Assembly (NCBI GenBank): GCA_936920195.1
Contig: CAKZHE010000244.1
Location: forward strand, 1-36,101
Source: an uncultured cyanobacterium
Lineage (GTDB): Bacteria; Cyanobacteriota; Cyanobacteriia; Cyanobacteriales; FACHB-T130
Length of the DNA: 36,101 nucleotides
Direction: 5' to 3'
A program made the position numbers and the translations under genes. Each line of letters opens with the position of its first letter. Positions within the stretch are counted from its first letter, which is position 1. Below the pieces are notes generated by a model, which searched no databases, was not told the origin of the DNA, and saw only the letters and a list, made by a program, of their open reading frames with translations. Positions 16,283 through 35,003 of this stretch are shown piece by piece.

Positions 16283-16329
16283 AAATCTATATTTAAGGGT
16301 GAATAGCATTTACCCTTAAATATAGATTT
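16283..16329. terminator. Long A+T hairpin after vipp1
   Basis: AAATCTATATTTAAGGGT (16283-16300) is perfectly inverted at 16312-16329, an 18-bp stem that can extend by three pairs with one G-U into the loop. A short T run follows. It is probably a terminator that isolates vipp1 from the TPS gene, although the stem is unusually A+T-rich and long. Confidence 0.7.
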
Positions 16330-16354: not shown

Positions 16355-19147
16355 ATGAAACAAACTCTCCAGAAAATTTGGTTACTAGGCAACCTATCCC
16401 TGTATTGGCTAGTAATTGCTTCCCCAGTTAAGGCTCAAATTGCGGGAGATAATACCCTAGGCACAACAGTAAATGGTTCTCTCTCATCGCCTTGTATAGC
16501 TGGCTCTTGTTTGATTGATGGCGGCACTCCAAGAGGCAGCAACCTATTTCACAGTTTCGATCAATTTTCTATTCCTAGTGGAGTTACTGCTAATTTTGTT
16601 AACAATAGCTCGGCGGTTCAAAACATTATTAGTCGAGTTACAGGTAATTTACCTTCTGATATTAATGGTACTATTAAATCGAGTGGAACTTATCCTAATT
16701 TCAACTTATTTTTAATCAATCCTAATGGCATTTATTTTGGCTCAAATGCCAGCCTTTCGCTGCATGGTTCATTTACTGCCAGCACTGCCAAAAGCGTCAT
16801 TTTTGGGAATGGCATTCAGTTTATTGCCGAAACTGCTTCTGCCGCTCCACTACTGGCAATTAGCGCTCCCATTGGTTTGCAATTTGGCAACTCAGCCGCA
16901 CCTATTCAGGTACAAAGTTCTAGTTTATCCCTACCAAACGGCAACACTTTAGCTCTCGTAGGTGGAGAGATTAATATGACAGGCGGCATCATTGTTACTC
17001 CCAATGGAAAGACTATTTTAGCCAGTATGGGTGCGAATAGCCAAGTTAACCTGATCTCCTCCCCTACAGGTTGGAGTTTAGGATATGAAGGCGAGCAGAA
17101 TTTTCAAGATATTAATTTGTCTCAGCTAACAACAGTCAGCGCTGATGGGGGCAATATCCAAGTCCTAGCTAGAAATGCTATCCTCACTGGAGGTTCTGGA
17201 ATAGAAGTTCCCTCTTCCAGTACCCAGTCAGGAGGAAATTTAGATATTCTCACCTCTGATTCATTGCAACTTATGGGGACTTCCGGTAGCCCATCCAATA
17301 TTTTTAGTCGCCTATTTACTCAAACTTCCAACAATAAAAATGCTGGAAATATCAATATTAATACCAATAGGTTAATTATTGCCAATGGAGCTGGAATATA
17401 TAGCTCTACTTTTGGTAATGGTAACGGTGGAAAAATTACTATCAATGCTCTGGAATCTTTAGAAGTAGCGGGAAGTTCTAGTCAGGGAGTTTTTAGCGGG
17501 GTGTTTTCCAATACTTCCACTCCAGGGAATGGGCAAGGCGGAAATATCAGTATTACAACTCCAAAACTTACCCTTACAGATAGCGCAACTATTTCAAGTT
17601 CAACAGTTAATCGGGGTGCTGCCGGAAATTTAATCTTTAACTCCAATCAGCTAATCCTTCAAAATGACGCGAAAATTAGTTCCAAAAGTTTTGGAACTGG
17701 CACTCCTGGCAATATCAATGTGACAGCCAATACGGTTTCGCTAGATAATCGATCCGATTTGTCTAATAATACTGTTTCTGCCAAGGGAGGAGATATTAAT
17801 TTTCAGAACTTGACTGTTTTAAGTCTTAGTAGAGGCAGTCAAATTTCTGCTTCCACTTTGAACGGAGAAGGGGGAAATATTAATATTGTTACTGCCAATT
17901 CTACAAGTTTAAATAATAGCAGCATCCTGGCGCTAGCTAGCGGTAGCGGTAATGCCGGAAATATTAATATTGGCACTAATCTGCTCAATCTGCAAAATGT
18001 CTCGCAAATAGCTGCTAACAATACTGGCACAGGAAATGGTGGCAGTTTAGCAATTACAGGCGGGACAATTTTTTTAGATAATCAAAGCAAACTATCTGCT
18101 GAAAGCAAATCGGGGTTGGGAGGAAATATTCAACTTTGGATTAGCAATGCCTTGAATTTAAATAATAGCAGTAAAATATCAATTTCTTCCATTACAGGAG
18201 AGGGTGGTTTTATAACTATTAGTGCTGCTAATTCAATCAACTTAAACAACGGTAGCAATCTGTCAGCGGAAGCCACGGGGAGAGGGTTGGCCGGAAGTTT
18301 AAGAATTGCTACAGAACAGCTAATTTTGCAAAACCGCTCTAGTGTGAATGTCAACAATACTGGCTTGGGTAGTGCAGGCAATCTAGAAATTACCGCCCGC
18401 TCTATTTTTCTCGATCGCCAATCGGAATTGAAAGCTGCCACAGCGTCGGGAGAAGGAGGCAATATTCAGCTTAAAGTCTGGGATTCAATTATTTTGCGGC
18501 ACAACAGCAATATTTTGGCAAATGCTATGAAAAATGGAAATGGGGGAAATATTACTATTAATGCTGGGGGCTTTATTCTTGGCGTACCTTCAGAAAATAG
18601 CGATATTGTTGCTAATGCTTATGAAGGAAGGGGTGGTAATATCAATGCTAGTGCGATGGCAATTTTTACTTTTCAACAAATGGGTAGAAATAGAACCGAC
18701 AAAAGTGATTTTAAGGCTAGTTCAACGTTAGGTATCAATGGCACAGTAGAAATAAGTGTGCGAGATAATATCCGCATTGAACCTTTAAGTGTGAAAAATT
18801 TACCGGGAGAAGTTGCCCAAGGTTGTGCCGCCAGCAATTCATCCTCTAACCAACAATCCCAAAGTCAATTTACATGGCGAGGAAAACAAGGAATCTTACC
18901 TAATCCAGGGGCAATACTGAATAATAATTCTTCTCAAGTTCCGTTCATAAATACTGGTTTTGGGCAAAGCAGCGATCGCGCATCTATTCTAACCAACCCA
19001 ACTAACTCTCCCCCCAGTGAAATTGTTGAGGCAACCGGATGGGAAAGAGATATCAATGGGAAAATTGCCCTCATTCCTCAAAGTACAACCGATCGAAATT
19101 TATCTTGGTGGCTATCTACTTGTTATGAGAGGCAAACTTCACCTTAG
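16355..19147 (+). CDS. Two-partner-secretion (FHA-like) exoprotein
   Basis: This 930-aa protein has a signal peptide ending at VKAQ and the TPS/hemagglutination-activity domain that directs export through a TpsB porin. Visible motifs are RGSNLFHSFDQFSIPSG, IISRVTGNLPSDINGTI and LFLINPNGIYFGSNASLSLHG. Residues from about 250 to 800 are a repetitive beta-helix-type region with recurring GGNI/GNI turns and LNNSS-type strands. The C-terminus (ATGWERDINGKIAL, then WWLSTCYER) is a conserved end seen in cyanobacterial relatives. It should be surface-exposed or secreted. The TpsB partner is not in the window. Its last 23 bases overlap the start of the CHAT gene. Confidence 0.9.
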   Translation: MKQTLQKIWLLGNLSLYWLVIASPVKAQIAGDNTLGTTVNGSLSSPCIAGSCLIDGGTPRGSNLFHSFDQFSIPSGVTANFVNNSSAVQNIISRVTGNLPSDINGTIKSSGTYPNFNLFLINPNGIYFGSNASLSLHGSFTASTAKSVIFGNGIQFIAETASAAPLLAISAPIGLQFGNSAAPIQVQSSSLSLPNGNTLALVGGEINMTGGIIVTPNGKTILASMGANSQVNLISSPTGWSLGYEGEQNFQDINLSQLTTVSADGGNIQVLARNAILTGGSGIEVPSSSTQSGGNLDILTSDSLQLMGTSGSPSNIFSRLFTQTSNNKNAGNININTNRLIIANGAGIYSSTFGNGNGGKITINALESLEVAGSSSQGVFSGVFSNTSTPGNGQGGNISITTPKLTLTDSATISSSTVNRGAAGNLIFNSNQLILQNDAKISSKSFGTGTPGNINVTANTVSLDNRSDLSNNTVSAKGGDINFQNLTVLSLSRGSQISASTLNGEGGNINIVTANSTSLNNSSILALASGSGNAGNINIGTNLLNLQNVSQIAANNTGTGNGGSLAITGGTIFLDNQSKLSAESKSGLGGNIQLWISNALNLNNSSKISISSITGEGGFITISAANSINLNNGSNLSAEATGRGLAGSLRIATEQLILQNRSSVNVNNTGLGSAGNLEITARSIFLDRQSELKAATASGEGGNIQLKVWDSIILRHNSNILANAMKNGNGGNITINAGGFILGVPSENSDIVANAYEGRGGNINASAMAIFTFQQMGRNRTDKSDFKASSTLGINGTVEISVRDNIRIEPLSVKNLPGEVAQGCAASNSSSNQQSQSQFTWRGKQGILPNPGAILNNNSSQVPFINTGFGQSSDRASILTNPTNSPPSEIVEATGWERDINGKIALIPQSTTDRNLSWWLSTCYERQTSP

Positions 19148-21887
19148 TTTTTTTTGCCCTTGGTTGTTAGGATTAGTTTTGCTATGGAATTTTTTGAGCG
19201 CCCAAAAGCTATTTGCTCAATCTGTGCCAGCTCCTTCCACACTCTCAAAATTGCTCTCTTTGCAAGTCAATCTACCTGAAGATCGAGAAACTGCCAATGT
19301 ACAGGTTTTAGTTCGTCAAGGACAAGATTTTTATAATAGCGGTCATTTTTCGGAAGCTATTCAAGTTTTACAATATACAGCGGATGTTTTTAAAAACCAA
19401 GGGAATTATTTTTCTCAAGCAGTTAGTTTAATCAATTTATCCTTAGCTTATCAACAACTGGGGCAATGGGAAGAGGCGGAGCAGGCGATCGCAAATAGCC
19501 TAAATTTATTAAACACCAATCCAGGCGATCGCCGCTATCGACAATTAACTGCTCAAGTTTGGGAAATTTCAGGGCAACTAAAATTATCGACGGGGAAACC
19601 ACAAGAGGCGTTAAAATTTTGGCAAGATGCCACCCAAGCTTATCAGGAATTGTCCGATCTAGCTGCGGCGAGCCGAAATACCATCAAGCAAAGTTTAGCT
19701 CTGCAAGAATTAGGGCTGCAGCGCGAAGCTTTGAAAATATTAATTTCCCTGCTGCCAACTTTAGAGCAACAATCAGATCTTTTCGTCAAAGCAATGGGAT
19801 GGCGGAGTTTGGGGAATGTTTTACGAGTAGTTGGCGAAGTTCCAGAATTGGAAAAATATTATTTGGGGTTTAAAAAACCGCCAAACGGGAAAAGTTTGAC
19901 CTATTTAGAGCAATCAAAACAGTTATTGGAGGAAAGCTTAAAAATTACTGATAAATTACAACTTTCTCAAGAAAGTAGTGTGACGCAACTGAGTTTGGCT
20001 AACACACTTGAAGCTATTTATGAACAGTTACAAAATGCTGCCGAACGGATTGAGAGTAGGAGTAGGAAAGAACAAGCTGCCCAAAAAGCGGAAGAGGTAT
20101 TAACTTCCTATCAACAAATAGTTGACAATCCTTATAATAACCGATTTGTTCGGATTCAAGCGCAATTAAATTATCTTAATTTGAAGATCAAGTTACAAAA
20201 GTTAAACGAATTTAGTAGTAATAATTTATCCCAAATTACATCGGAAATTGATCTGCTCCCGGTCAGTCGAGAGGCTATCTATGCGCGAATCAATTTAGTC
20301 AAAAGTTTAATCAGAATTGCCCAACAATCTGACCATAAAAGTCAATTTTTATGGGCATCCGCCGATCTATTGAAAGTCGCTATTCCACAAGCTCAAAAAT
20401 TAGGCGATCGCCCTGCTGAAAGTTATGCTAGGGGATATTTAGGCAAGCTATACGAACACAATCAGCAGTTCAAAGAAGCGATGCAGTTAACTCAGCAAGC
20501 TCTGTTCATTAGCGAAGAAATTCAAGCCAAAGAAATTAGTTATCAATGGCAGTGGCAGTTAGGAAGATTAGCCAAAAAACAGGAGGATAGAAAGAAGGCG
20601 ATCGCCTATTATCAAGAAGCAATTCAAAGTCTAGATAGCGTTCGCCAAGATCTCAGCAGCTTGAAAAATCCCGAAGTCCAATTTTCATTTCGAGATGATG
20701 CCGAACCAATTTATCGGGAATTAGTTGATTTACTTCTACCTCGATTAGAACCAGAAGTTTCTCAAGCCAATCTCAAGCAAGCTCAGTTAACCATTGAAGC
20801 GCTGCAATTAGCTGAATTAGAAAATTATCTGCGCTGTCAACTATCAAAATCCATTGCCATTGATAAAGTGATTGCACAACATAATTTGAAAACCGCTATT
20901 ATCTACCCAATTGTTTTGGAAGACAGACTAGAAGTCATCCTGAAACTGCCTGGGCAAGAGGAATTAATTCGCTATACTACCTTGATTTATAAAGGTGAAT
21001 TAGAAACTAAAATCAAGAAATTACAAGAGAATATAGAGGAGAGAAAAACAGCAGAAGACCCAACAACAAATTTTGCAGAAATGTATAAAATACTCCTAAA
21101 AAAAGCCGAGCCATACTTAAAAAATCATCATTTCAAAATTGATACTTTATTATTTGTTTTAGATGGCTCTTTACAAAATATTCCGATGGCATCGCTTTAC
21201 GATGGTAATTCCTATCTGATTGGCAACTATAGTCTTGTTATGAATTTGGGACTACAACTTGTTGATGAACAACCTCTAGAAAAAGACAAATTTAATGTTC
21301 TAGTTGCCGGACTTAGTGAAAAGGTAGATGAGGATTTTTCCGAACTTCCGTATGTGAAAGAGGAAGTTAAGCTAATTCCCAATAGCACTGTTTTACTAAA
21401 TTCAGATTTTACTTTTAACACCCTTCAGCAAAAAATGAACTCCCAATCTTTTTCAGTAGTGCATTTAGCTACTCATGGTTTATTTAGCTCTAATCCTGAC
21501 GAAACATTTATTTGGGCGACTAATCAAGAAAAAATCAATGTTAATCGGCTAATTAATTTGCTTCGCAGTCAACAGCAAAATCAACCCAATTCGATTAAAC
21601 TACTAACTTTGAGTGCTTGCCAAACAGCCAAAGGAGATAAATGGGCGGCTTTAGGAATTGCTGGGGTAGCAGTGCGCTCTGGAGCGCGGAGTACCATTGC
21701 TTCTTTATCAAATGTTCCAGATAAATCTACAGCTTTAATGATGAGCTATTTGTATGAAGAACTGGGCAAACCTGGAGTTACAAAGGCAGAAGCATTGCGT
21801 TCGGCACAGCGAAAAATATTGCAAGACCCCGAATATAAAAAACCTTTTTATTGGTCTTCTTTTATTCTCCTGGGCAGTTGGCGATAG
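19125..21887 (+). CDS. Exported TPR-CHAT caspase-like protease
   Basis: I choose the ATG at 19125 because it gives a clear signal peptide (MRGKLHLSFFCPWLLGLVLL, ending near LFAQS) and 920 aa. The GTG at 19017 lies deep in the upstream gene. About 480 residues of TPR-like helix pairs follow (FSEAIQVLQYTADVFKNQGN, then LGQWEEAEQAIANSL). The C-terminal CHAT domain has the catalytic dyad His in VVHLATHGLFSS and Cys in LTLSACQTAKG, ending in WSSFILLGSW. CHAT proteases use TPR regions to capture partners. The 23-base overlap with the TPS gene implies coupled expression. As the protein is exported, its targets should be outside the cytoplasm, perhaps the TPS protein itself (inference). Confidence 0.92.
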   Translation: MRGKLHLSFFCPWLLGLVLLWNFLSAQKLFAQSVPAPSTLSKLLSLQVNLPEDRETANVQVLVRQGQDFYNSGHFSEAIQVLQYTADVFKNQGNYFSQAVSLINLSLAYQQLGQWEEAEQAIANSLNLLNTNPGDRRYRQLTAQVWEISGQLKLSTGKPQEALKFWQDATQAYQELSDLAAASRNTIKQSLALQELGLQREALKILISLLPTLEQQSDLFVKAMGWRSLGNVLRVVGEVPELEKYYLGFKKPPNGKSLTYLEQSKQLLEESLKITDKLQLSQESSVTQLSLANTLEAIYEQLQNAAERIESRSRKEQAAQKAEEVLTSYQQIVDNPYNNRFVRIQAQLNYLNLKIKLQKLNEFSSNNLSQITSEIDLLPVSREAIYARINLVKSLIRIAQQSDHKSQFLWASADLLKVAIPQAQKLGDRPAESYARGYLGKLYEHNQQFKEAMQLTQQALFISEEIQAKEISYQWQWQLGRLAKKQEDRKKAIAYYQEAIQSLDSVRQDLSSLKNPEVQFSFRDDAEPIYRELVDLLLPRLEPEVSQANLKQAQLTIEALQLAELENYLRCQLSKSIAIDKVIAQHNLKTAIIYPIVLEDRLEVILKLPGQEELIRYTTLIYKGELETKIKKLQENIEERKTAEDPTTNFAEMYKILLKKAEPYLKNHHFKIDTLLFVLDGSLQNIPMASLYDGNSYLIGNYSLVMNLGLQLVDEQPLEKDKFNVLVAGLSEKVDEDFSELPYVKEEVKLIPNSTVLLNSDFTFNTLQQKMNSQSFSVVHLATHGLFSSNPDETFIWATNQEKINVNRLINLLRSQQQNQPNSIKLLTLSACQTAKGDKWAALGIAGVAVRSGARSTIASLSNVPDKSTALMMSYLYEELGKPGVTKAEALRSAQRKILQDPEYKKPFYWSSFILLGSWR

Positions 21888-21906
21888 TCAAAAAGTTGTG
21901 GTAGAT

Positions 21907-22725
21907 TTAATTTGGGGGTGTACAGCAATCAACAATTGGTTCAGAAGCAATTTTTTCTAATCCGCTAGAACGCAAAACTTCCCGCCACTGTTGGTTTTTA
22001 GGTTCAGTTCGTTTTAGTTCAGCTAGCGCCTTAAGCATATCGTACCAAAAGCCATTTTTACCGTAAAGGATTGCCTGTTGTAGTAAAGTAGCTGCCTGTA
22101 ATTGAGTTTTTAAATCAGTATTTGGTTCTTCTCGTCTAATCAATCTTTGCACAGAAAGTTTTTTTGGTGTTAGATTCTGGGGACATTCAACATTAATAAA
22201 AAAGTAAAAATAATACCATTGATTAATTTCTAATGGCGGTGCTGTAGCAGGTAAAGTAAAGCTAATTATCCCGGGAGTATTTGTTAAAGTTAATTCACTT
22301 TCATAAACAGTTATTTCGGCATGATTTTCTGAATTCCACCTCCGCAGTGAGAATTTACCAGAGATGATAGAACCGGGAGAATTGGATATATATACCCAAA
22401 AAGTGGGACGTTCTTTGGTTGTTAATCCCCATAAGGGCTTTTCCTCTGAATTTGGTTCAATTATGGGGACTAAGGCAACTAAATTTTCATTCACTCCACA
22501 GCCACGATTAGAGCCGTTAACAGTGTTAGGAGGTTTTCCTCGCGATTCTTTAGCTGCTGGGGGGGTGAAAATAACGCGATCGCCTTCTGCTACCTTTAAA
22601 CTATAACTCTGATTAATTATTGCTGGTGGTAACTGTGCTAAGGTTGATGCTCTCTCCCAAACTAACCAGTTGAGGATTGAGATAATTGCTAATAATAGTT
22701 TGAGAGATTGAGTGCGAATATTCAT
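21907..22725 (-). CDS. DUF928 exported protein
   Basis: This 272-aa protein begins with a signal peptide (LKLLLAIISILNWLVW and ASTLAQ). Its body matches DUF928: GCGVNENLVALVPI, KERPTFWVYIS, LEINQWYYFYFFINVECPQN and a helical C-terminal half (LLQQAILYGKNGFWYDMLKA). The function of DUF928 is unknown. The fold region PTFWVYISNSPG looks like a beta-sandwich module. It overlaps the CHASE2 gene stop by 4 bases (ATGA), so it is the last gene of that operon. It ends 19 bases from the convergent CHAT gene. Confidence 0.88.
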   Translation of the reverse strand: MNIRTQSLKLLLAIISILNWLVWERASTLAQLPPAIINQSYSLKVAEGDRVIFTPPAAKESRGKPPNTVNGSNRGCGVNENLVALVPIIEPNSEEKPLWGLTTKERPTFWVYISNSPGSIISGKFSLRRWNSENHAEITVYESELTLTNTPGIISFTLPATAPPLEINQWYYFYFFINVECPQNLTPKKLSVQRLIRREEPNTDLKTQLQAATLLQQAILYGKNGFWYDMLKALAELKRTEPKNQQWREVLRSSGLEKIASEPIVDCCTPPN

Positions 22726-25067
22726 TTGGCCGATCGGGGGAATGGAGAGGTTTTTAATTGTTTTTGTTGTTGAGAATGATAAGTAGCGATCGCACTACTA
22801 CCCAGAACTAAAGCGATCGCACCGGGAATTAGGGGAACCCAAGCCCCGTGGAGAAATAACGCCCAACAAATCCCATATAAACTGCTAGTTACCACTCCAC
22901 CAATTAAGACTAAATATAAAAGCGATCGCACCCGCCAAGCAATAACTGCACCTACCACAGACCAACCCCACACCCATAATATATCACCCCACAGAGGCCA
23001 AGCCCAAATTATAGGCCGTCCATTTAATACCGCACTGAGAATATGGCTAACTACTTGTGCATGAAAGATTACTCCGGGGATTTCTTGTTGAAATCCCGAA
23101 CCGTAGGGAGTGCGGAAAGCAGTCGCCACACTGGGAGCCGTCACCCCAATTAAAATAATTCGGTCTTTGACAATATTAGCATTAATTTCATTATTTAATA
23201 TTTGTTTTAGCGTCACTGTATCAGCTAATTTCAGGGGCGAATTAGGCGAACGGTAATTAATTAGTATTTGATGCCCTGAAGAGTCAATATTTTGATACCC
23301 ACCAGTGTGATTTTCCCAAGGATTAAAGATTACTTGACCTAGTTTTAAATGCCCTTGTTTAGTTTCTTCCGGTTTAATTCCCTCCTTTTCTAGATATAGC
23401 AGTGCTAGTTTGAGTGCAAAAGCCTGGGATGAAGGACAACGAGATTGCGGATAGGGGTCTAGAAATAAAATCGAACGTCGAAAAGTTCCATCTAAAAAAT
23501 TGTCCGCCAAAATATTGCTAAAACCTATTTGCTGAGGGGGAATTTCTGGCGGAGGAGCAACGCTGGCATCGCTATTTTTGACATCGCCGACAAAACAAGT
23601 CCCAATAATTTGCGGATTTTGTTGCAAGCGAGTAGCCAATTGTTTTTCTTGGGGATTGACAGGGAAATCGCGCAGCAGAGATAAACCAATGGCTCTGGGT
23701 TGATAGGATGCCAGTTTATTGAGGACTAAATTTAAGGCTTTGTCAGATAGAGAACCTTTTCTATCTTGTTGTTCTGGTAGTTGTAAATCTGGTTCAGTAA
23801 TGGTGACAATCAGCAGACGATTGTCGGGAAATTCCTGGGGACGCGATCGCATTAATTGATCATAACTTTGCAATTCCACTGGCTGCAACCATCCCCCATA
23901 CCGCACCCCCATCACTAAGCTAGTTACTGCCAAACTAGCCAGCAAAACTTGTCGCCAACCTTGCCAACTTACTTTAGGATGCTGATTGAGTAAATCTGCC
24001 CAAGTCACAGGTAATTCCGCTGGATTTTGGCAAATAGTTGGCAACCAAGTTGCACAAGGTAAATCGCTTTCTAAACCTTGCAATCTTTCCCGCGCTTCCC
24101 GCACGGCTACATAAAATGATTTGCCACTGGCAAAGCTAGATAGAAAATATTTCAGAAAACTGTGAGCAACCCGATCGGGAACTAGATCCCGCATCACAAT
24201 CATTTGGGGAATTTGGGTATCATCTAGCTGCCAAGATAATCCTAAACCATCACAGGAATTAAAAATTGCTAGCTTTAAACCATTTTCTACCGCTTTTCTG
24301 AGGCCAAACCACAAATCATTAATTGCTAAACTTTCCTGGGGATTAATATAAATTTTCCCGGTTTCCCCTTCCGTTTCGCTATGTCCCGCAAAAAAGATAA
24401 TATCCCAAGGTTGCTCCCACAATTGGTTGTTAATTTCTTGCCGTTTTGGTTCTACTAAAAAGACTGTTTCTGCTCCCGGTAAACTTTCTAGCAACCGTCT
24501 GTCTTCAGCAATATTTATGCCCTCACTATGACCTAAAATAGCTAAAATTCTAATCTTGGTTTTGGGATGGACAGAAATGAACTTTTTAGTTTTAGCAAAA
24601 TTGGTATAGCTGAGGGCAATTTCCGCCTTGGGGTAGCGTTCAATAAAATCCCAAAGATGCCAAGGCAACTTTTGTAAATGATTGTTTTCAGTCCGAATTA
24701 GTACCCGAATATTTTCGTCCCTAGCCAATTCTTCCCGCAAGCGTTTGTCAATCGGACGAAAGCCATCCGCATTCAGCCAGGTAGTTAAGCGATCGCCTAA
24801 TACTTGGGCTGAACTAGAACATTCTACAATGGCATTATTCACCGAACCATCGTAAATGATTTTTCCCGGTTTCAGGCGAGCCGGAGCCGCAATCCGATGA
24901 TAGGTTTCTTGCCAATTGGTTAAGGCATCTGCTAATTCTGGAAACGGTGGTAGTTGCCCCCGCACTTCAATTTCGGGTTGTTTGCCCTCAAAACTAATTT
25001 CTAGCGTGACTCGAAACCCCTGCTGTTCGAGATTGCCGTCTAGCTTCAAAACTACTAATCTATTCAT
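22722..25067 (-). CDS. CHAT-CHASE2 membrane protein
   Basis: This 781-aa protein has an N-terminal CHAT caspase-like domain (about 75-345) with His229 in FFAGHSETEG and Cys272 in IFNSCDG. One membrane helix follows at about 373-390. The CHASE2 sensor domain (about 395-665) starts at YDQLMRSRPQEFPDNRLLIV and has GIVFHAQ-like features (IPGVIFHAQVVSHIL). Three more hydrophobic helices lie at the C-terminus. CHASE2 is normally an extracytoplasmic sensor in signalling proteins, so the CHAT domain should face the cytoplasm. It is the third gene of the sigma-DUF1822-CHASE2-DUF928 operon. Confidence 0.92.
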   Translation of the reverse strand: MNRLVVLKLDGNLEQQGFRVTLEISFEGKQPEIEVRGQLPPFPELADALTNWQETYHRIAAPARLKPGKIIYDGSVNNAIVECSSSAQVLGDRLTTWLNADGFRPIDKRLREELARDENIRVLIRTENNHLQKLPWHLWDFIERYPKAEIALSYTNFAKTKKFISVHPKTKIRILAILGHSEGINIAEDRRLLESLPGAETVFLVEPKRQEINNQLWEQPWDIIFFAGHSETEGETGKIYINPQESLAINDLWFGLRKAVENGLKLAIFNSCDGLGLSWQLDDTQIPQMIVMRDLVPDRVAHSFLKYFLSSFASGKSFYVAVREARERLQGLESDLPCATWLPTICQNPAELPVTWADLLNQHPKVSWQGWRQVLLASLAVTSLVMGVRYGGWLQPVELQSYDQLMRSRPQEFPDNRLLIVTITEPDLQLPEQQDRKGSLSDKALNLVLNKLASYQPRAIGLSLLRDFPVNPQEKQLATRLQQNPQIIGTCFVGDVKNSDASVAPPPEIPPQQIGFSNILADNFLDGTFRRSILFLDPYPQSRCPSSQAFALKLALLYLEKEGIKPEETKQGHLKLGQVIFNPWENHTGGYQNIDSSGHQILINYRSPNSPLKLADTVTLKQILNNEINANIVKDRIILIGVTAPSVATAFRTPYGSGFQQEIPGVIFHAQVVSHILSAVLNGRPIIWAWPLWGDILWVWGWSVVGAVIAWRVRSLLYLVLIGGVVTSSLYGICWALFLHGAWVPLIPGAIALVLGSSAIATYHSQQQKQLKTSPFPRSAK

Positions 25068-25085
25068 GAGCTATTCAGAGGGTAA

Positions 25086-26012
25086 TTAAAGTAAAAATGC
25101 TTCAGTAATGCTGACATCTCCCAAGGCTACTTTAACACTAAATGTTTCGCCAGATTCGCCAGTAAACTGCAATTGAATATTCTTAGTAGTTCTAGCCTGA
25201 GCTTGCATCACTGCTTCGCCGTCTTCATCCAGTACCATCAACTGTAAATCTTGGGGCAAATACTCTTGCCCCCCTGTCGGATAAACTTCGACACAAATAT
25301 CCATTTCTGGTTTAGTCATCGGCTTCAACCCTACACACAAAGCAACGTTTTCTCCGGCTCTTTCCAAATTTATTTGTTTGCCCCGCTGAATGGTATTATC
25401 GCCTCTAGTCAACGTGGTTTTATTTCTAAAGTTAAAGGCTAATTCAGCGTGTTGTGGCTCCAAGAGCGATTCTACAGCCTGCCAGCCAACTTCAAAAATG
25501 TTATCTAGCCAACCCGCAAGATTAATCATGGATTTGGGTTGAAATGTGCTGAGGTGTTCCAGGAAGTCTTCTAGGGGTAGTAGTTGATTAATTGCTAAGG
25601 TTTTGGTTTTCACTTCGGGGACAAATCCTAACACCGTTCCCTGTTGTAAAGATTGATCTAATTTTACTGCTACATAGCCAATTCTATCTGACCAAAACTC
25701 CGGGGGGAAATTGACTGTATCCTCATCAGCTAAAACTGGACGACATTCGATTTTCCCTAATCCATTGATTTCTAAATCAGCGAGATTCATTAGGGATGCG
25801 ATCGCCGGATTATAACTATAGCTTTTTTGCCAGTTAGTGCCAATGCCCATACATTCCAGGTAAAACTTGACCGCATATATCGCCAAATAATTCAAGTACG
25901 CTTGTTCGGCTTTTTCCGGGCTATTTTGCAGGCGCGAATTTTTTTGAGCTAGTCCCCGAATTTCCCTAGTGAATGGCACGGTAAACAAGTAACAATCGGT
26001 AAGGTAGTTCAT
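25086..26012 (-). CDS. DUF1822 family protein
   Basis: This 308-aa protein matches DUF1822, a family seen almost only in cyanobacteria: AYLNYLAIYAVKFYLECMGI, IGYVAVKLDQSL, LGFVPEV and the C-terminal CVEVYPTGGQEYLPQDLQL. There is no signal peptide or membrane helix, so it is probably cytoplasmic. Its function is unknown. It sits 18 bases upstream of the CHAT-CHASE2 gene and 29 bases downstream of the sigma factor gene. The conserved linkage suggests it works with the CHASE2 protein (inference). Confidence 0.9.
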   Translation of the reverse strand: MNYLTDCYLFTVPFTREIRGLAQKNSRLQNSPEKAEQAYLNYLAIYAVKFYLECMGIGTNWQKSYSYNPAIASLMNLADLEINGLGKIECRPVLADEDTVNFPPEFWSDRIGYVAVKLDQSLQQGTVLGFVPEVKTKTLAINQLLPLEDFLEHLSTFQPKSMINLAGWLDNIFEVGWQAVESLLEPQHAELAFNFRNKTTLTRGDNTIQRGKQINLERAGENVALCVGLKPMTKPEMDICVEVYPTGGQEYLPQDLQLMVLDEDGEAVMQAQARTTKNIQLQFTGESGETFSVKVALGDVSITEAFLL

Positions 26013-26041
26013 AGCTAAAGATTGGTGGTGAAGTGGAATAA

Positions 26042-26635
26042 TTAATTGGCTAGATACTCTCGGAATTTGGGCGCAAATTTTTTGAGACTGCGCTGGTAAA
26101 AACTACTTAAGGTTGAGATGCTAATGTTGAACTCTTTGGAAATCTCTTCCCAAGATATATCGGCTAGATATCGGAGAGCCAAGGCTTGAAAACTAGCTTC
26201 TGGGCATCCTTTGACGCAGGCTTTTTGAAAAATGTCATCCGGATCTTCTTCTAGATATGTTTTAATCTCCTCAATTTCAGAAAAATTATCCAAGATCCCT
26301 TCATCTATGGGGATTGTGATTTTCTTTTGCCGTTCATTAATAACATCAATAAACCGCTTGCTGACTAGAAAATTCACCCAAGCAATTACTTTGCCCCGTT
26401 CCGGTTTGTAGTCATCTATCTTTTGGCAGATTTGCATGAATACTTTTTGGAGTGCTTCGGCATAAATATCCGCATAAACATCGGGGTGAAAGCTACTATA
26501 GGGACGGTATAGCTGACCAGATTTCTGAATGGTACTAATCAGTTTGGTGAGAGCTTTTTGACGTTCCTTAGTGGCAGGTGGGTGTTTTTGAGCTTCTAGG
26601 GCTAGTTGTAGTAGTTGCCAATCGAGATCGTTCAT
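26042..26635 (-). CDS. Sigma-70 family (ECF-like) RNA polymerase sigma factor
   Basis: This 197-aa protein has a region-2-like segment (YAEALQKVFMQICQKIDDYK, then GKVIAWVNFLVSKRFIDVIN) and region 4 with a helix-turn-helix (FQALALRYLADISWEEISKE, then ISISTLSSFYQRSLKKF). No anti-sigma factor is recognised nearby. It is the first gene of the operon with DUF1822, CHAT-CHASE2 and DUF928, so it may direct expression of this operon and of the TPS-CHAT pair opposite. A small palindrome GTTCGT-CAGC-ACGAAC at 26720-26735 lies upstream. Confidence 0.88.
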   Translation of the reverse strand: MNDLDWQLLQLALEAQKHPPATKERQKALTKLISTIQKSGQLYRPYSSFHPDVYADIYAEALQKVFMQICQKIDDYKPERGKVIAWVNFLVSKRFIDVINERQKKITIPIDEGILDNFSEIEEIKTYLEEDPDDIFQKACVKGCPEASFQALALRYLADISWEEISKEFNISISTLSSFYQRSLKKFAPKFREYLAN

Positions 26636-27239
26636 TGCTTGATTGCCAAAGCCGGATCAATTGATTTGGGATGGGATTGACTCAAGCCCCTGGATGGGAA
26701 GCCTGTTACTGATTTGAGCGTTCGTCAGCACGAACTTCTATTTCTTTCTCCTATGGAGAATGCCTAAAATATGCGTTCTGAACTTTTTTGACAAAATTTG
26801 ATGGCGATCGCCAGTTTTCCTAGAGCTTATCCCAATTTCACCAACCACTGCTACCCATAGACGATCCCTTTTTCAGGTAGGGGGATCAACCCACTGTAGC
26901 CAGAATAAATGAAATTGGTATTACACCAGATTCTAACGATATCCGCCCATTCTACCATTGACTGCTATATGTAAGAACAACATTTGTGTCGAATTCTAGC
27001 GCACTTTTCTAGATTTATAAAATCAGATCCTCCTAAATCGCCCCCTTTAAACTGCTTCCTAGCCAGTAGGGTGCGTATAGCCATGCCGAAGGCTATACGC
27101 ACCCTACTACTGGTGAGGAATCTCTTATTTTACAAGGGTTTCAGACTAGATTGTAAAGTTCTATAAAGAAGTTAGTTATTTTTGCGTAAAACATATTGCC
27201 CTTGCCAGATAACAATACAGAGCAATCAATATAGCGATT
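26636..27239. other. 604-bp intergenic region upstream of the sigma operon
   Basis: I see no credible gene here. It contains the palindrome GTTCGTCAGCACGAAC (26720-26735), possibly an operator or start of the sigma-operon leader, a plus-strand TTGACA at 26789, and dispersed palindromic repeat D at 27066-27107. The rest has no recognisable structure. Confidence 0.6.
27066..27107. repeat. Dispersed palindromic repeat D, copy 1
   Basis: GTAGGGTGCGTATAGCC (27066-27082) is perfectly inverted at 27091-27107 around an 8-base loop. A diverged copy lies at 34844-34887. The arms extend a few bases further outward imperfectly (CCAGTAG/CTACTGG). Confidence 0.9.
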
Positions 27240-27644: not shown

Positions 27645-29360
27645 TTAGTTTTGTGGCGCAACTGTTTTTTTCCCGCGACGCTGAAAAACCCAGCCCGAAC
27701 CTAAAATTCCAAAAGTCAATAAACTCAAAATTGAAGATGATTCGGGAATAGTAGTTGTACCGGGGTTAGGATCGGGAGAACAAGGATCGGTAGTGGTATT
27801 ATCAAAAACTTCGATTTGATATTCTCCTGGCAAACGTTCAGGAATAAAAAACTGATAGGACGGAGTAGAATTGCCAGTGTTGGGTACACATTGGGAACTA
27901 GAAGAGGTAGCAAAACTCACAGGCACGCTCTCAGCAACAACGGAATCCAAGGAATCTACAGCAGCTAATCTCATCGCACTAATTGGACTGCTAGCCGAAA
28001 ATGAACTAGAATCCGCAAAAGAAGCCAAGGCAAAAGTTGATGCCGGACTAGAGAAGATAGTAGTACCAGAAAGATTGATAGATGCCCCTGGCATTTCATT
28101 GATAAAACCTGAAGATGTAAAGCCGAGCCTGCGCCCTAATGGGTCAGTAATCAGAAAATTAGCAGAATTCAATAAGCCTTGGAATGGATTATCAGAATAT
28201 AAATGAGAATCACTATCTGCAAAAAATTCTTGCAGACCTGGAGAGAGGATATTGCTGATGAATAGATAAGGATGCAATGGGTCTTCTTCTCTAGGCTGGG
28301 CAGCAAATTCAACTCCAGTAGTTGTAAATCCTCGAGAGCCATTTACCCCAGCATTCTCAGCCGCCCACTCAATTATTCCCGCATCTGAAAATAGTCCTTC
28401 TCCACCTTTCTGCATATCCGGTAACACTACAATATCATTCGCCAGTTCTGCTCTCACATCCAAATATCCCGCCCCCAATTGAGTTTCGATATTTGCTGCC
28501 ATTGCTTGAGCAATTTCTGGGGCAAGGGCAACAAAATTGGAGTGGGAAACGGGCGATGAATCTGGGATTTGCGATTGATACAGATAGGAACCTAAAGAAT
28601 GCTGTGCTTGCACTCCATCAATTGCTGATATTGTTTGATAGGTTTGAGTTAGCGGGTCCCAATAGTCCCCTGGGGCATAAGCTCGACTAGATTCATAAAT
28701 TTTGTTGTTATAAAATAGCCCAACTCGATTGCTGGTAGTATTATCATTTCCTAGCACAATGAATCCATTGCCTATAGGGGGCGAAGTAATACTGTCATCT
28801 TGCAGATATATTAACCCATCACCAATATTTACTTGACTGTTAAATTGAAAATTTCCTATCCAATTTTGGTCATCAGACCCAACTACAAAATCAATGGTAG
28901 AACCTACTTGCACATTGGTACTGAAATCGTATTTTCCCAAACCTGTATTTCCAATCGTAGATTGCAATAGTTGACTTTCTCCATTAATTAAAATCTGATT
29001 TTTCAAGGTACTACCCACACTGGTAGTAGTAATTTGCGGAAATAGTGCTGAAATGTTTACGTCTCCATTAAAGTTGCTGACCCATCTCCGAACTAGAGAG
29101 GTGCTAGAATCAATACCATTAAAGTATCCGCCGTTGGCATCTAGTCCGCCTCCAGATGTTTGCCAGCTACCACTGCTAAAATTTAGGGGGTTAAATCCAC
29201 TACCGTCATCGTAGCCATAAAACCATCCCCCCAACCCTTGAGTTGTCGAAAATTGCGTGCTTGAATCTGTCAGGGTAAGGGCTTGGGCAGAGTTGAAAAT
29301 TCCCCCCAAGCTCACTGCTATCGTGGTCAATCCAATTAATGCAGTTCTTAATCCAAACAT
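27645..29360 (-). CDS. PEP-CTERM-anchored exported protein
   Basis: I choose the ATG at 29360 (MFGLRTALIGLTTIAV), preceded by GTGAGG, giving 571 aa with a signal peptide ending near AQA. The body begins with a beta-rich module (QGLGGWFYGYDDGSGFNPLN on) and has two more extracellular-looking segments of unknown function. The C-terminus has the PEP-CTERM pattern: PESSSILSLLTFGILGSG followed by the basic FQRRGKK. Such proteins are processed by an exosortase and displayed outside the cell. No exosortase gene is in the window. It is divergent from the AIM24 cluster. Confidence 0.85.
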   Translation of the reverse strand: MFGLRTALIGLTTIAVSLGGIFNSAQALTLTDSSTQFSTTQGLGGWFYGYDDGSGFNPLNFSSGSWQTSGGGLDANGGYFNGIDSSTSLVRRWVSNFNGDVNISALFPQITTTSVGSTLKNQILINGESQLLQSTIGNTGLGKYDFSTNVQVGSTIDFVVGSDDQNWIGNFQFNSQVNIGDGLIYLQDDSITSPPIGNGFIVLGNDNTTSNRVGLFYNNKIYESSRAYAPGDYWDPLTQTYQTISAIDGVQAQHSLGSYLYQSQIPDSSPVSHSNFVALAPEIAQAMAANIETQLGAGYLDVRAELANDIVVLPDMQKGGEGLFSDAGIIEWAAENAGVNGSRGFTTTGVEFAAQPREEDPLHPYLFISNILSPGLQEFFADSDSHLYSDNPFQGLLNSANFLITDPLGRRLGFTSSGFINEMPGASINLSGTTIFSSPASTFALASFADSSSFSASSPISAMRLAAVDSLDSVVAESVPVSFATSSSSQCVPNTGNSTPSYQFFIPERLPGEYQIEVFDNTTTDPCSPDPNPGTTTIPESSSILSLLTFGILGSGWVFQRRGKKTVAPQN

Positions 29361-29936
29361 GATTTGATACCTCACAATTTGTTCGCGATAATTTATTGGC
29401 ACGCGGAAGCAGAGGCAACAATTTGCTGCACCATGAATCGGTTTTATTGGCATGGCAAAAAATATCCATTAGCCACGAATTTTTAATGGCATCGCTGGCT
29501 AAATCAATGATTTTTTGTTTTCTGCTTCCTACCTATTCTTCTGAGCTAAAAGAAGTTTTTGTGCAGGAGGATATCAAGCTTTAAGACAAATTCATAATTG
29601 CTTTGTTATTTAAAGTTATTGCTTATATTTGCAAAATTTCGCTGCCAGATGCAGAAATATCCAGTTTAAGTAGATACACTTATCGATGGGCTGATGGATA
29701 GTTTGAGCAATGCTTAGAAAATATCAAGGGTTGCTAGTCAACCGAAATTACACGGAACTTATGGGTTTTTAGGCTAAATTTTATGAGATCTATGATTTAA
29801 GTGCAAAAAAATATCGAGGGCGATCGCACGATTGCGGCTCAAATATAAAAATATTTCCCAAGAAAATTGAGCCATCCATTGCCAAATCCATCTCCTGATT
29901 GTAAATTTGAGGCATTGGCTTACAGGAGGATGCCCA
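29361..29936. other. 576-bp divergent intergenic region
   Basis: The region lies between the PEP-CTERM gene and the first AIM24 gene and should hold both promoters. Apart from a HIP1 site near 29820 and A+T-rich sequence I see no hairpin, repeat or credible small gene. Confidence 0.6.
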
Positions 29937-30602
29937 GTGAAATATGAAATTCGTTATAAACCAGCTTTTGCCGCTATCTTTATCAGCCTTAGTCCTGGAG
30001 AAAGCATAATTGCTGAATCAGGAGCAATGCTGAGTATGGATGCCCAGTTGTCTCTGAAAACCAGTTTTTCTGGTGGCTTTTTCTCCGGGTTACTAAAAAA
30101 GTTTTTTGGCGGTGAATCCTTATTTGTCAATACCTATACCAATAATACTAACCAACCTTTACAATTAGTATTGACGCAATCTGCCATTGGAGATATTAGC
30201 AATATCGATCTCCTCGGTGGTAAAGAAATTTGTTTTCAACCCGGTGCTTATATCGCCCATACTCCAGGGGTAAAAATTGGGATTGAGTGGGCAGGAATTA
30301 CTAGCTGGCTGGCAGGAGAAGGATTATTTAAACTAAAATTGAGCGGTGAAGGGCGGGTATTTTTTGGGGCCTATGGGGGCTTAACTCAAAAACGCATTAA
30401 TGGGGAATTTATCGTAGATACTGGTCACTTAATTGCCTACGAACCAGGATTAAAAATGAAACTGGGATTACCAGGAGGTTTAATTGGTTCTGTGACCTCT
30501 GGCGAAGGATTAGTTAATCGGATTTCTGGACAAGGGGATATTTATTTACAGTCGCGCAGTATTGATGGTTTGGTTAATTATTTGCGTCCAAAATTTTTCT
30601 AA
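29937..30602 (+). CDS. AIM24 family protein, paralogue 1
   Basis: I choose the GTG at 29937 because AGGAGGA lies 6 bases upstream, giving 221 aa (VKYEIRYKPAFAAIFISLSP). AIM24/TIGR00266 proteins are trimeric-looking beta-barrel-like proteins of uncertain role; the yeast mitochondrial member affects inner-membrane architecture. Family marks are LSPGESIIAESGAMLSM, FFGGESLFVNTY, WLAGEGLFKLKLSGEG, FIVDTGHLIAYE and TSGEGLVNRISGQG. It is first of three tandem paralogues. Confidence 0.9.
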   Translation: MKYEIRYKPAFAAIFISLSPGESIIAESGAMLSMDAQLSLKTSFSGGFFSGLLKKFFGGESLFVNTYTNNTNQPLQLVLTQSAIGDISNIDLLGGKEICFQPGAYIAHTPGVKIGIEWAGITSWLAGEGLFKLKLSGEGRVFFGAYGGLTQKRINGEFIVDTGHLIAYEPGLKMKLGLPGGLIGSVTSGEGLVNRISGQGDIYLQSRSIDGLVNYLRPKFF

Positions 30603-30635
30603 ACATCTAGGCAGTGGAGGAGAGAAAGCAATTAA

Positions 30636-31316
30636 ATGAAAGTAGAACTTTTGCACCAACCAGACAGCGCGATCGCCCGGATTAATCTTAATGCTGGCGA
30701 AGAAATTATTGCTGAAGCGGGGACAATGATTGCCATGAGTGGTTTCATCAATGTTAGTACCACTTTAAGGCAAGGGAAAGGCGGCGGCATTCTAGGTGGA
30801 TTTAAGCGAATGTTAGGCGGTGAATCTTTATTTTTGAGCGTTTTTCGTTCGCCTACTGCCAACGGTGAAATTTACTTAGCGCCTAAGTTGATAGGAGATA
30901 TTTTAACCTATCAACTGACTCCCACAGGTTTAGTTGTTCAAGCCAGTTCCTATCTAGCTGGCTCCAATGGGGTTGATATTGACTTAGGATTTCAAGGGTT
31001 TAAATCTTTGTTTTCAGGGGAATCAGTTTTTTGGCTAGATATCAGTGGTACTGGGACTTTGTTGCTGGCTTCCTTTGGCGCAATTTACGAAATTGAAGTT
31101 AATGGCGAATATATAGTAGATACTGGTCATATTGTCGCCTTTGAAAAAAGCCTCAAATTTGAAATTACCAAACCTGGCTCTAGTTGGATTGGAGCCTTTT
31201 TAGGGGGTGAAGGCTTAGTTTGTCGCTTCAAAGGACAAGGAAAGTTGTTTTGTCAAACCCACAATCCCGGAGCTTTTGGGCAATTGGTGGGTTCTAAGTT
31301 ACCTGCTAAAAGTTAA
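30636..31316 (+). CDS. AIM24 family protein, paralogue 2
   Basis: This 226-aa member has the same blocks: LNAGEEIIAEAGTMIAMSG, MLGGESLFLSVF, FQGFKSLFSGESVFWLDISG, EYIVDTGHIVAFE and LGGEGLVCRFKGQGKLFCQ. A GGAGGAG sequence precedes it at a rather long distance. Its stop overlaps the start of paralogue 3 (TAATG), so translation of the two is probably coupled. Confidence 0.92.
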   Translation: MKVELLHQPDSAIARINLNAGEEIIAEAGTMIAMSGFINVSTTLRQGKGGGILGGFKRMLGGESLFLSVFRSPTANGEIYLAPKLIGDILTYQLTPTGLVVQASSYLAGSNGVDIDLGFQGFKSLFSGESVFWLDISGTGTLLLASFGAIYEIEVNGEYIVDTGHIVAFEKSLKFEITKPGSSWIGAFLGGEGLVCRFKGQGKLFCQTHNPGAFGQLVGSKLPAKS

Positions 31317-32032
31317 TGGGAAAAAATATGAACGAAATTGTTTACGAAATCCAACACTCTCCAGCTTATGCCTCTTTGATTATTAACCTCAAACCAAATC
31401 AAAAGATTTTGGTAGAAGCAGGGGCAATGGCAGCGATGGACTCTTGGATTAAAATGAAATCAAAAGTTCAAGGAGGCTTGCTGAAAGGTTTAGGTAGGAT
31501 GGTAGGGGGCGAATCGTTATTTATCAGCGAGTTTGTGGCGGAAGGGAAAGCTGGACAAATTTATATTTCCCCTGGAGTGCCAGGAGATGTACAACACTAT
31601 TCCCTACAAGGCAATGCTTTGCTAATTCAATCTTCGGGATTTGTGGCTTGCAGTCCTACGGTAGAAATTGATAGTAAATTTCAAGGGTTTAAAGGGTTCT
31701 TTAGTGGTGAATCTTTATTTTTGTTAAGAGCTACTGGACAAGGAGATATTTGGTTTAGTTCCTATGGCGGGATTATCGAAATTCCGGTGGATGGTGACTA
31801 TGTAGTGGATACTGGCTATATTGTGGCGTTTGAAGATAGTCTAACTTATCATGTGGAAATGTTGGGGGGTTTGTCTTTTCGAGGTTTAAAAACTGGAATT
31901 TTAGGTGGGGAAGGATTAGTTTGTCGCTTCCGGGGAAAGGGGCGGTTATGGGTGCAGTCTCGGCTGATTTATGGATTGGTAAATTTCTTGAATCCTTTCC
32001 GCCCAGTTAGTACGAGTAAGAAAGATGATTAG
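31316..32032 (+). CDS. AIM24 family protein, paralogue 3
   Basis: This 238-aa member starts at the ATG overlapping the previous stop; an alternative ATG at 31328 (MNEIVYEIQHSPAY) aligns better with the other paralogues. Motifs are LKPNQKILVEAGAMAAMDS, MVGGESLFISEF, FQGFKGFFSGESLF, DYVVDTGYIVAFED and LGGEGLVCRFRGKGRLWVQS. It is followed by a hairpin repeat and the kinase-GUN4 gene. Confidence 0.92.
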   Translation: MGKNMNEIVYEIQHSPAYASLIINLKPNQKILVEAGAMAAMDSWIKMKSKVQGGLLKGLGRMVGGESLFISEFVAEGKAGQIYISPGVPGDVQHYSLQGNALLIQSSGFVACSPTVEIDSKFQGFKGFFSGESLFLLRATGQGDIWFSSYGGIIEIPVDGDYVVDTGYIVAFEDSLTYHVEMLGGLSFRGLKTGILGGEGLVCRFRGKGRLWVQSRLIYGLVNFLNPFRPVSTSKKDD

Positions 32033-32055: not shown

Positions 32056-32101
32056 GTAGTTGGGCTTCAGCCCTAATTCCGGAGGGCTAAAGCCCAACTA
32101 C
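32056..32101. repeat. Hairpin repeat between AIM24 and kinase genes
   Basis: GTAGTTGGGCTT and its complement AAGCCCAACTAC bracket an inner AGCCCT/AGGGCT pair and a short loop. It could act as a terminator or attenuator for the AIM24 genes, and the kinase reading frame extends falsely back into it. Confidence 0.75.
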
Positions 32102-32182
32102 GAGCTTTTTATGGTACAATTGAACTATTGCAGTCGCAAAAGACTGTGCCACAATCAATATCAGCGTCTGGGAGTTGCAAAT

Positions 32183-33439
32183 ATGGCTTGGAATGCAGGA
32201 CAGAAATTGCAAGGCGGTAAATACGTTGTTGAAAAAATTCTTGGTCAAGGTGGTTTTGGAATTACTTACCTGGTGAAAAAAAGCCAAGAAAATCGAGTTA
32301 TTAAAACCCTGAATGCTTCATTCCAACACCGCAGCGATTTTGCCAAGTTTCAGCAAGATTTCTTAAACGAGGCTTTGCGACTAGCCAAATTTAGCCATCC
32401 CCATATTGTTCGCGTTGATGAAGTGATTCAAGAAGGCGAATTATGGTGTATGGTCATGGAATATATTGACGGGAATAATTTAGCCCAACAAACTTGGACG
32501 CAAGGCAGTTTATCGGAAGCAGAGGCTTTGCGCTATATTCGCCAAGTTGGGGAAGCTCTAACTATTGTTCACGACAATGGTTTGCTGCACCGAGATATTA
32601 AACCCTTGAATATTATGGTGCGGAAAACTGAAGCCGAAGCGGTTTTAATTGACTTTGGGATTGCGCGGGAATTTACCCCGAATATTACTCAGACGCAAAC
32701 CCAATTTTTATCGGAAGGATTTGCCCCAATTGAACAATATGATTGGCGAGCCAAGCGGGGAGCTTATACGGATATTTATGCTTTAGCGGCAACGCTGTAT
32801 TCTTTAATTACTGGAGAAATTCCCACGCCTGCACCTGTGAGGGCTTTTGGAGTTAATTTGGAAACGGCAAAAGAAATTAATGATCAAGTTAGCGATCGCC
32901 TGAACCAAGCTATCATTAAAGGGATGGCAATGAAGCCAGAACAACGCCCCCAAAGCGTCTCGGAATGGCTGTCTTTGTTACCCCCGGTGATGGATAATCT
33001 TTCCCTTGACAACTACAGTAAACTAAAACAACTTTTGGCGGCAAAAAAATGGCAAGCTGCCGATGCCGAAACGGGAAAATTAATGTTAAAAGTTGCCAAG
33101 CGGGAAGGTTGGTTGCGCGTGGAAGATATTGCCCAATTTCCGGCTCAAGATTTGCAAATTATCGATCAATTGTGGACAGATAATAGTCAAGGGCGCTTTG
33201 GCATCAGCGTGCAGAAGCGCATTTGGCAAAATATTGTTGGCAATCAAAAGCCTAATTGGGAAACTTGGTGCAGTTTTGGCGATCGCGTTGGTTGGCGACA
33301 AAACGGCAACTGGTTATCCTATTCTAGCTTAGATTTTTCCCTGCAAGCTCCAGAAGGACAATTACCCGCCCTAGTAGTTGCCGATAATTTCACCTTGCGG
33401 CATCAAGAATCTATTGCTGCCTTGCTGTCTCGAAAATAA
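32183..33439 (+). CDS. Ser/Thr protein kinase with C-terminal GUN4 domain
   Basis: I choose the ATG at 32183 (MAWNAGQKLQGGKYVVEKIL, with GGGAG upstream), giving 418 aa. The kinase domain has the glycine loop GQGGFG (21-26), Lys41, HRDIKPLN with Asp139, and DFG at 157-159, so it should be active. The C-terminal GUN4 domain (about 276-398) shows YSKLKQLLAAKKWQAADAET, IDQLWTDNSQGRFGISVQKR and FGDRVGWRQNGNWL. GUN4 binds porphyrins and activates Mg-chelatase. The fusion suggests a kinase sensing tetrapyrrole or a similar ligand. No membrane helix is present. Confidence 0.95.
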   Translation: MAWNAGQKLQGGKYVVEKILGQGGFGITYLVKKSQENRVIKTLNASFQHRSDFAKFQQDFLNEALRLAKFSHPHIVRVDEVIQEGELWCMVMEYIDGNNLAQQTWTQGSLSEAEALRYIRQVGEALTIVHDNGLLHRDIKPLNIMVRKTEAEAVLIDFGIAREFTPNITQTQTQFLSEGFAPIEQYDWRAKRGAYTDIYALAATLYSLITGEIPTPAPVRAFGVNLETAKEINDQVSDRLNQAIIKGMAMKPEQRPQSVSEWLSLLPPVMDNLSLDNYSKLKQLLAAKKWQAADAETGKLMLKVAKREGWLRVEDIAQFPAQDLQIIDQLWTDNSQGRFGISVQKRIWQNIVGNQKPNWETWCSFGDRVGWRQNGNWLSYSSLDFSLQAPEGQLPALVVADNFTLRHQESIAALLSRK

Positions 33440-34887: not shown

Positions 34888-35003
34888 GAATCACTCCCCG
34901 GTAGCTGATTTTGCTGTTGAAGAAAAGTAAATAAATGTAAAGAAGTGCAAAAACATCGCTGAAGAATGATAAATATATAAATATTATTAATGTTGAGTTG
35001 CCA

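Follow-up and report, generated by a model that had tools for sequence, protein, structure and literature searches.

The window is the whole stretch of 36,101 nucleotides analysed from an uncultured cyanobacterium, and it contains two operons that face each other tail to tail, preceded by an inverted repeat in the PspA/IM30–TPS intergenic region. The features are as follows.

16283–16329, no strand assigned: inverted repeat of 22 nt with a 3-nt loop, a possible terminator or cis element
16355–19147, plus strand: TpsA-type exoprotein with a TPS domain, 930 aa (Pfam TPS, PF05860, 1e-47; NCBIfam adhes_NPXG, 1e-18)
19125–21887, plus strand: TPR-CHAT protease, predicted to be exported, 920 aa (Pfam CHAT, 4e-48, and TPR; His in HLATHG, Cys in LSACQT)
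21907–22725, minus strand: DUF928 protein, predicted to be exported, 272 aa (Pfam DUF928, 7e-47; AF2 model)
22722–25067, minus strand: membrane CHAT-CHASE2 receptor, 781 aa (Pfam CHASE2, 2e-62, and CHAT, 1e-7; motifs FFAGHS and FNSCDG)
25086–26012, minus strand: DUF1822 protein, 308 aa (Pfam DUF1822, 4e-70; AF2 model)
26042–26635, minus strand: sigma-70 factor of ECF size, 197 aa (NCBIfam sigma70-ECF, 3e-12; Pfam sigma-70 r4_2, 2e-6)

The DUF928 and CHAT-CHASE2 genes overlap by 4 bases, and 19 bases (21888–21906) separate the ends of the two operons. The 23-base overlap of the TPR-CHAT gene with the TPS gene holds for the ATG at 19125; its open frame reaches back to a GTG at 19017. All six reading frames, both overlaps and the gap lie where the preliminary description had placed them, and Pfam and NCBIfam return matching domains. 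Export of the window proteins is predicted from hydrophobic N-termini and from the signal helix in the AF2 model of DUF928, rather than by a dedicated signal-peptide program. Generic scans of the window for sigma-70 promoters and terminators gave no more hits than shuffled sequence. Elsewhere in the window, a perfect 18-nt inverted repeat (27065–27108) lies between the sigma gene and a 602-aa gene with no family match (27645–29453). Another caspase-fold gene encodes a Caspase (Peptidase_C14) and FGE-sulfatase protein (6943–9012, minus strand), and three tandem AIM24-family genes (29907–32032, plus strand) are followed by a GUN4-protein kinase gene (32060–33439). A second, short TPS-domain gene (354 aa; 34998–36062, plus strand) is found close to the contig end.

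Both CHAT domains of the window retain the catalytic His/Cys pair. In the alignments of relatives covering the motifs, these residues are conserved in every TPR-CHAT sequence and are invariant in the membrane CHAT-CHASE2 proteins. In the membrane protein the CHAT domain is N-terminal, and CHASE2 with C-terminal transmembrane helices comes after it, in line with the receptor proposed earlier. A profile of its residues 1–370 matches proteins carrying CHASE2, nSTAND1-WD40 and other C-termini, so that a constant N-terminal caspase-like module is joined to a variable C-terminus, as in EACC2-caspase systems. The N-terminal segment of about 150 residues is conserved; the named EACC2 alpha+beta domain has no match in the libraries searched. 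Among solved structures, CHAT-CHASE2 has no relative by sequence.

The sigma factor contains regions 2 and 4 only within its 197 aa, as expected for ECF (group 4) factors of about 200 aa, and matches the sigma70-ECF model at 2.6e-12 (46.7 bits against a cut-off of 42.9). Together with the DUF1822 gene, its gene adjoins the caspase-like gene, which is the arrangement of EACC2-caspase systems. A sigma gene stands immediately upstream of DUF1822 in 129 of 166 cases, and three loci (L047, L157 and L158) show two divergent DUF1822-CHAT/CHASE2-DUF928 cassettes flanking one sigma gene. To our knowledge, neither DUF928 nor DUF1822 has an assigned function. The AF2 model of DUF1822 (pLDDT 88) shows an N-terminal part of helices and strands and a C-terminal Ig-like sandwich, and that of DUF928 (pLDDT 85) shows the signal helix, a β-sandwich and a short helical tail. 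Fold searches with the two models returned generic Ig-like matches only (best Z 7.8 and 8.8, respectively), which are too weak to assign a function to either protein.

To compare the locus across the phylum, we surveyed DUF1822 in 146 genomes; it is present in 102, many of the matches being weak and within proteins of about 1000 aa. Such weak matches are seen in the small genomes of one family (f25) of the phylum. Positions of DUF928, TPS and ShlB were obtained for up to 48 genomes, and the survey covered about 100 neighbourhoods, each up to 20 kb long, along with 78 named loci from the CHAT-CHASE2 profile. DUF928 lies within 5 kb of DUF1822 in 24 of 92 cases (0.9 expected, P = 5e-28), and a TPS gene lies within 12 kb of 11 of the 24 DUF1822-DUF928 cassettes in 23 genomes (1.0 expected, P = 8e-10). 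These expectations come from a plain model of gene density, and genomes that are related do not count independently, so the P values somewhat overstate the strength of the linkage. The conserved gene order does not depend on them. Among 83 distinct CHAT-CHASE2 genes with flanks, DUF928 follows directly in 72, DUF1822 precedes in 69 and a sigma gene lies upstream in 62. TPR-CHAT is nearby in 37 of the 83, convergent as in the window in 22, co-directional in 14 and divergent in one. Within the 20-kb DUF1822 loci, TPR-CHAT occurs in 19 of 33 with CHAT-CHASE2 versus 12 of 64 without (P = 2e-4); the corresponding counts for TPS by the local profile, 7/33 versus 6/64, do not differ significantly (P = 0.12). 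About half of the cassettes are without the TPS/TPR-CHAT half.

The facing layout recurs in distant cyanobacteria. In the window's own family, two loci keep it, including the same 4-base overlap, one of them (L282) as far as its contig reaches. In the other (L283), the order is sigma, 15 bases, DUF1822, 21 bases, CHAT-CHASE2, a 4-base overlap, DUF928 and 40 bases, followed on the other strand by TPR-CHAT, 101 bases and TPS. The two operons thus co-occur far above chance, and the absence of statistical co-occurrence, which had been named as one result that would refute the proposed system, is not what we find. CHASE2 receptors sit with TPS/TPR-CHAT operons, apparently a new association.

Regarding secretion, the N-terminal TPS domain assigns the exoprotein to two-partner secretion (type Vb). 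No ShlB match for a TpsB partner lies in this contig, and six are found elsewhere in the genome. In several relatives the TPS operon includes TpsB, and the TpsB gene adjoins TPR-CHAT in three loci (L049, L060 and L080). In four cases, TpsA and TpsB form one protein of about 1440–1480 aa, with POTRA and ShlB after the TPS domain, encoded beside the cassette.

L153, 16177–20490, minus strand: TpsA-TpsB fusion, TPS followed by POTRA and ShlB (by Pfam)
G002, contig C1, 1805008–1809201: TpsA-TpsB fusion (by open frame)
G008, contig C72, 32874–37001: TpsA-TpsB fusion (by open frame)
G066, contig C1, 1706149–1710339: TpsA-TpsB fusion (by open frame)

DUF928 is linked to CHASE2 beyond the DUF1822 cassette. 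Among the 36 DUF928 matches listed, which come from nine genomes, 24 have a CHASE2 gene no more than 2.5 kb away (0.4 expected), 23 of these 24 on the same strand, and 12 have no CHASE2 nearby; in the listed cases without DUF1822, the link still holds for 14 of 26 (0.3 expected). Several such loci combine TPS, TPR-CHAT and DUF928 with a CHASE2-histidine kinase fusion, and in other loci that hold TPS or TPR-CHAT the output of CHASE2 is a cyclase. The receptor thus has varying output domains, of which CHAT, accompanied by sigma and DUF1822, is one. DUF928 is apparently a general partner of CHASE2 receptors, including those with histidine-kinase or cyclase output, which appears to be new. A TPS-TPR-CHAT-DUF928-CHASE2 locus with neither sigma nor DUF1822 recurs in six cases (L285, L288, L292, L294, L297 and L299), with CHASE2 in a histidine kinase where scanned.

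The short sigma genes located before DUF1822 have a common upstream motif, TTTGTAACA-N14/15-[CT]GTAAAA. It contains the AAC and CGT elements that ECF promoters usually have. The motif lies upstream of 19 of 71 short-sigma genes versus 9 of 1820 other genes (P = 3e-22), and a genome scan finds 38 sites versus 14 for the reversed pattern. The genes downstream of the scan sites, classed after the fact and without a matched control, include sigma genes, one TPS gene, genes for subtilase, RTX-CAP, PPC and exosortase proteins, M50 peptidases, a trypsin-like exported protease and a CHAT-nSTAND1-WD40 protein (in G024). A second motif-bearing subtilase gene lies beside the cassette in L153. This motif, seemingly new, is apparently the ECF-type promoter of this sigma factor; it stands before related sigma genes and, elsewhere, before genes whose products are secreted proteases or surface proteins. 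A candidate motif before the long sigma genes (about 400 aa), ATGCAACC-N13-ATTGAAAT, was rejected because the pattern is the start of their coding sequence. In the surveyed loci, the motif is upstream of none of 40 TPS and none of 56 TPR-CHAT genes, and it is absent upstream of the window's own sigma gene; it is present in the same-family locus L283. With the motif missing at these places, the control of the entire set by the sigma factor that had been suggested is not supported, and co-regulation across both operons is unproven. A single promoter motif common to the regions upstream of 16355 and 26635, proposed earlier as a check, was sought and none was found.

We tentatively read the whole as a cyanobacterial locus for envelope signalling and surface proteins, and give this reading slightly less than an even chance. 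A periplasmic cue would be sensed by the CHASE2 receptor, with exported DUF928 as a periplasmic partner, and this sensing would switch the cytoplasmic CHAT protease. The target of the protease may be the pair of DUF1822 and sigma; in the simplest case, DUF1822 would hold the sigma factor and be cut, and the freed ECF sigma factor would activate its own operon and, in relatives, also genes at a distance that encode secreted proteases and surface proteins. The facing operon would supply the two-partner-secretion exoprotein and the exported TPR-CHAT protease, which most likely trims, releases or quality-controls the exoprotein in the periplasm. The cue, every proteolytic step, the sigma-holding role of DUF1822 and what the exported protease cuts are inferred. 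The gene content, the catalytic residues, the linkage, the DUF928-CHASE2 pairing and the promoter before related sigma genes are observed here. The preliminary description thus stands for the CHAT residues, the receptor architecture and the co-occurrence of the operons, and is not supported for sigma control of the whole set. Taken as one relay of two proteases, in which CHASE2/DUF928 makes CHAT cut DUF1822 and free the ECF sigma factor, the tail-to-tail exported CHAT matures or releases the exoprotein, and DUF928 serves CHASE2 receptors generally, the proposal is doubtful as a complete chain.

The right-hand operon may instead be an EACC2-type caspase switch for conflict or cell death, as Burroughs & Aravind propose, with CHASE2 input triggering the caspase-like domain and leading to suicide or immune transcription, and the TPS operon merely a frequent neighbour. 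The passages of PMC8195603 on these systems give the same gene set of ECF sigma, DUF1822 and a caspase-like protein with a variable C-terminus that includes CHASE2, the motif also precedes the CHAT-nSTAND1-WD40 gene in G024, and a caspase acting as the effector would make a separate toxin unnecessary. However, PADLOC, whose sole result is a weak match to TPR, identifies no defence system, the genes marked by the motif mostly encode surface proteins or proteases that are secreted or membrane-bound rather than intracellular killers, and the linkage with DUF928 and TPS points to the envelope; we consider such a switch unlikely. A further reading separates the two halves. The CHAT-CHASE2/sigma operon would govern secreted proteins generally, and the TPS/TPR-CHAT operon would be a separate unit that does not respond to the same signal, clustered with DUF928/CHASE2 genes by gene-cluster selection or shared transfer. 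The lack of the motif before TPS and TPR-CHAT genes and the occurrence of TPS/TPR-CHAT/DUF928 loci with other CHASE2 receptors agree with this, but the tail-to-tail order recurs in distant genera and, with near-identical spacing, in the same family, and we consider it equally unlikely. Lastly, these genomes have numerous TPS and CHASE2 genes, which could produce chance neighbours or an annotation artefact; the enrichment (P from 1e-9 to 1e-39) and the conserved order in the surveys refute this, and it is extremely improbable.

Few cues are known for the widespread receptor domain CHASE2. From the surveys, DUF928 gains a testable role as a partner of CHASE2 and DUF1822 one as a partner of an ECF sigma factor, and the promoter word of the DUF1822-linked sigma factor is now defined across many species. 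The surveys also point to caspase-fold proteases that work on the surface of filamentous bacteria and not inside the cells alone, and reveal a protease gene inside TPS operons; for the known maturation proteases, a gene within the TPS operon was not seen, according to a 2017 review.

Finally, we compared the locus with known systems. HetF, a CHAT protease that takes part in heterocyst formation and in cell division (PMC8406250), is likewise a cyanobacterial membrane CHAT protein; however, its order is CHAT-TM-TPR, and the HetF equivalog model scores CHAT-CHASE2 at 21.7 bits over about 80 residues, below its cut-off of 1200. The TPR-CHAT of Craspase (type III-E CRISPR; PMC9729208) shares the TPR and CHAT architecture with the window protein, whose N-terminus, unlike that of Craspase, looks exported and whose matches to solved structures by sequence are to TPR only; no CRISPR protein is among the window genes scanned. 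Signal-controlled cleavage of a TpsA adhesin in the periplasm has a precedent in CdrA/LapG (reviewed in PMC5422565). Both cases would pair a TpsA surface protein with a periplasmic protease under cellular signalling. In the window, however, the protease is a TPR-CHAT protein encoded in the TPS operon, with the exoprotein as a candidate substrate, and it has a CHAT domain in place of the LapG-type protease domain, so the likeness lies in the way of working only. The closest system is that of Burroughs & Aravind (2021; PMC8195603), who predicted ECF-sigma/DUF1822/EACC2-caspase operons with CHASE2 variants; it shares with the window the ECF sigma, DUF1822, the constant caspase-like module and the variable C-terminus. 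The passages found describe DUF1822 as a TPR protein; the AF2 model of the window member instead has an α/β part and an Ig-like sandwich. DUF928, a TPS exoprotein, an exported TPR-CHAT protein and a promoter motif do not appear in these passages. Our literature search found no paper on CHASE2 together with a CHAT domain, and none tying the sigma/DUF1822/caspase-like/CHASE2 set to DUF928, TPS or exported TPR-CHAT. The system had been called undescribed; this is incorrect for the sigma-DUF1822-caspase-CHASE2 part, known as a prediction, and agrees with the passages found for DUF928 and the TPS/TPR-CHAT half. The link of the sensor half, predicted in 2021, to the surface half and DUF928 thus appears to be new.
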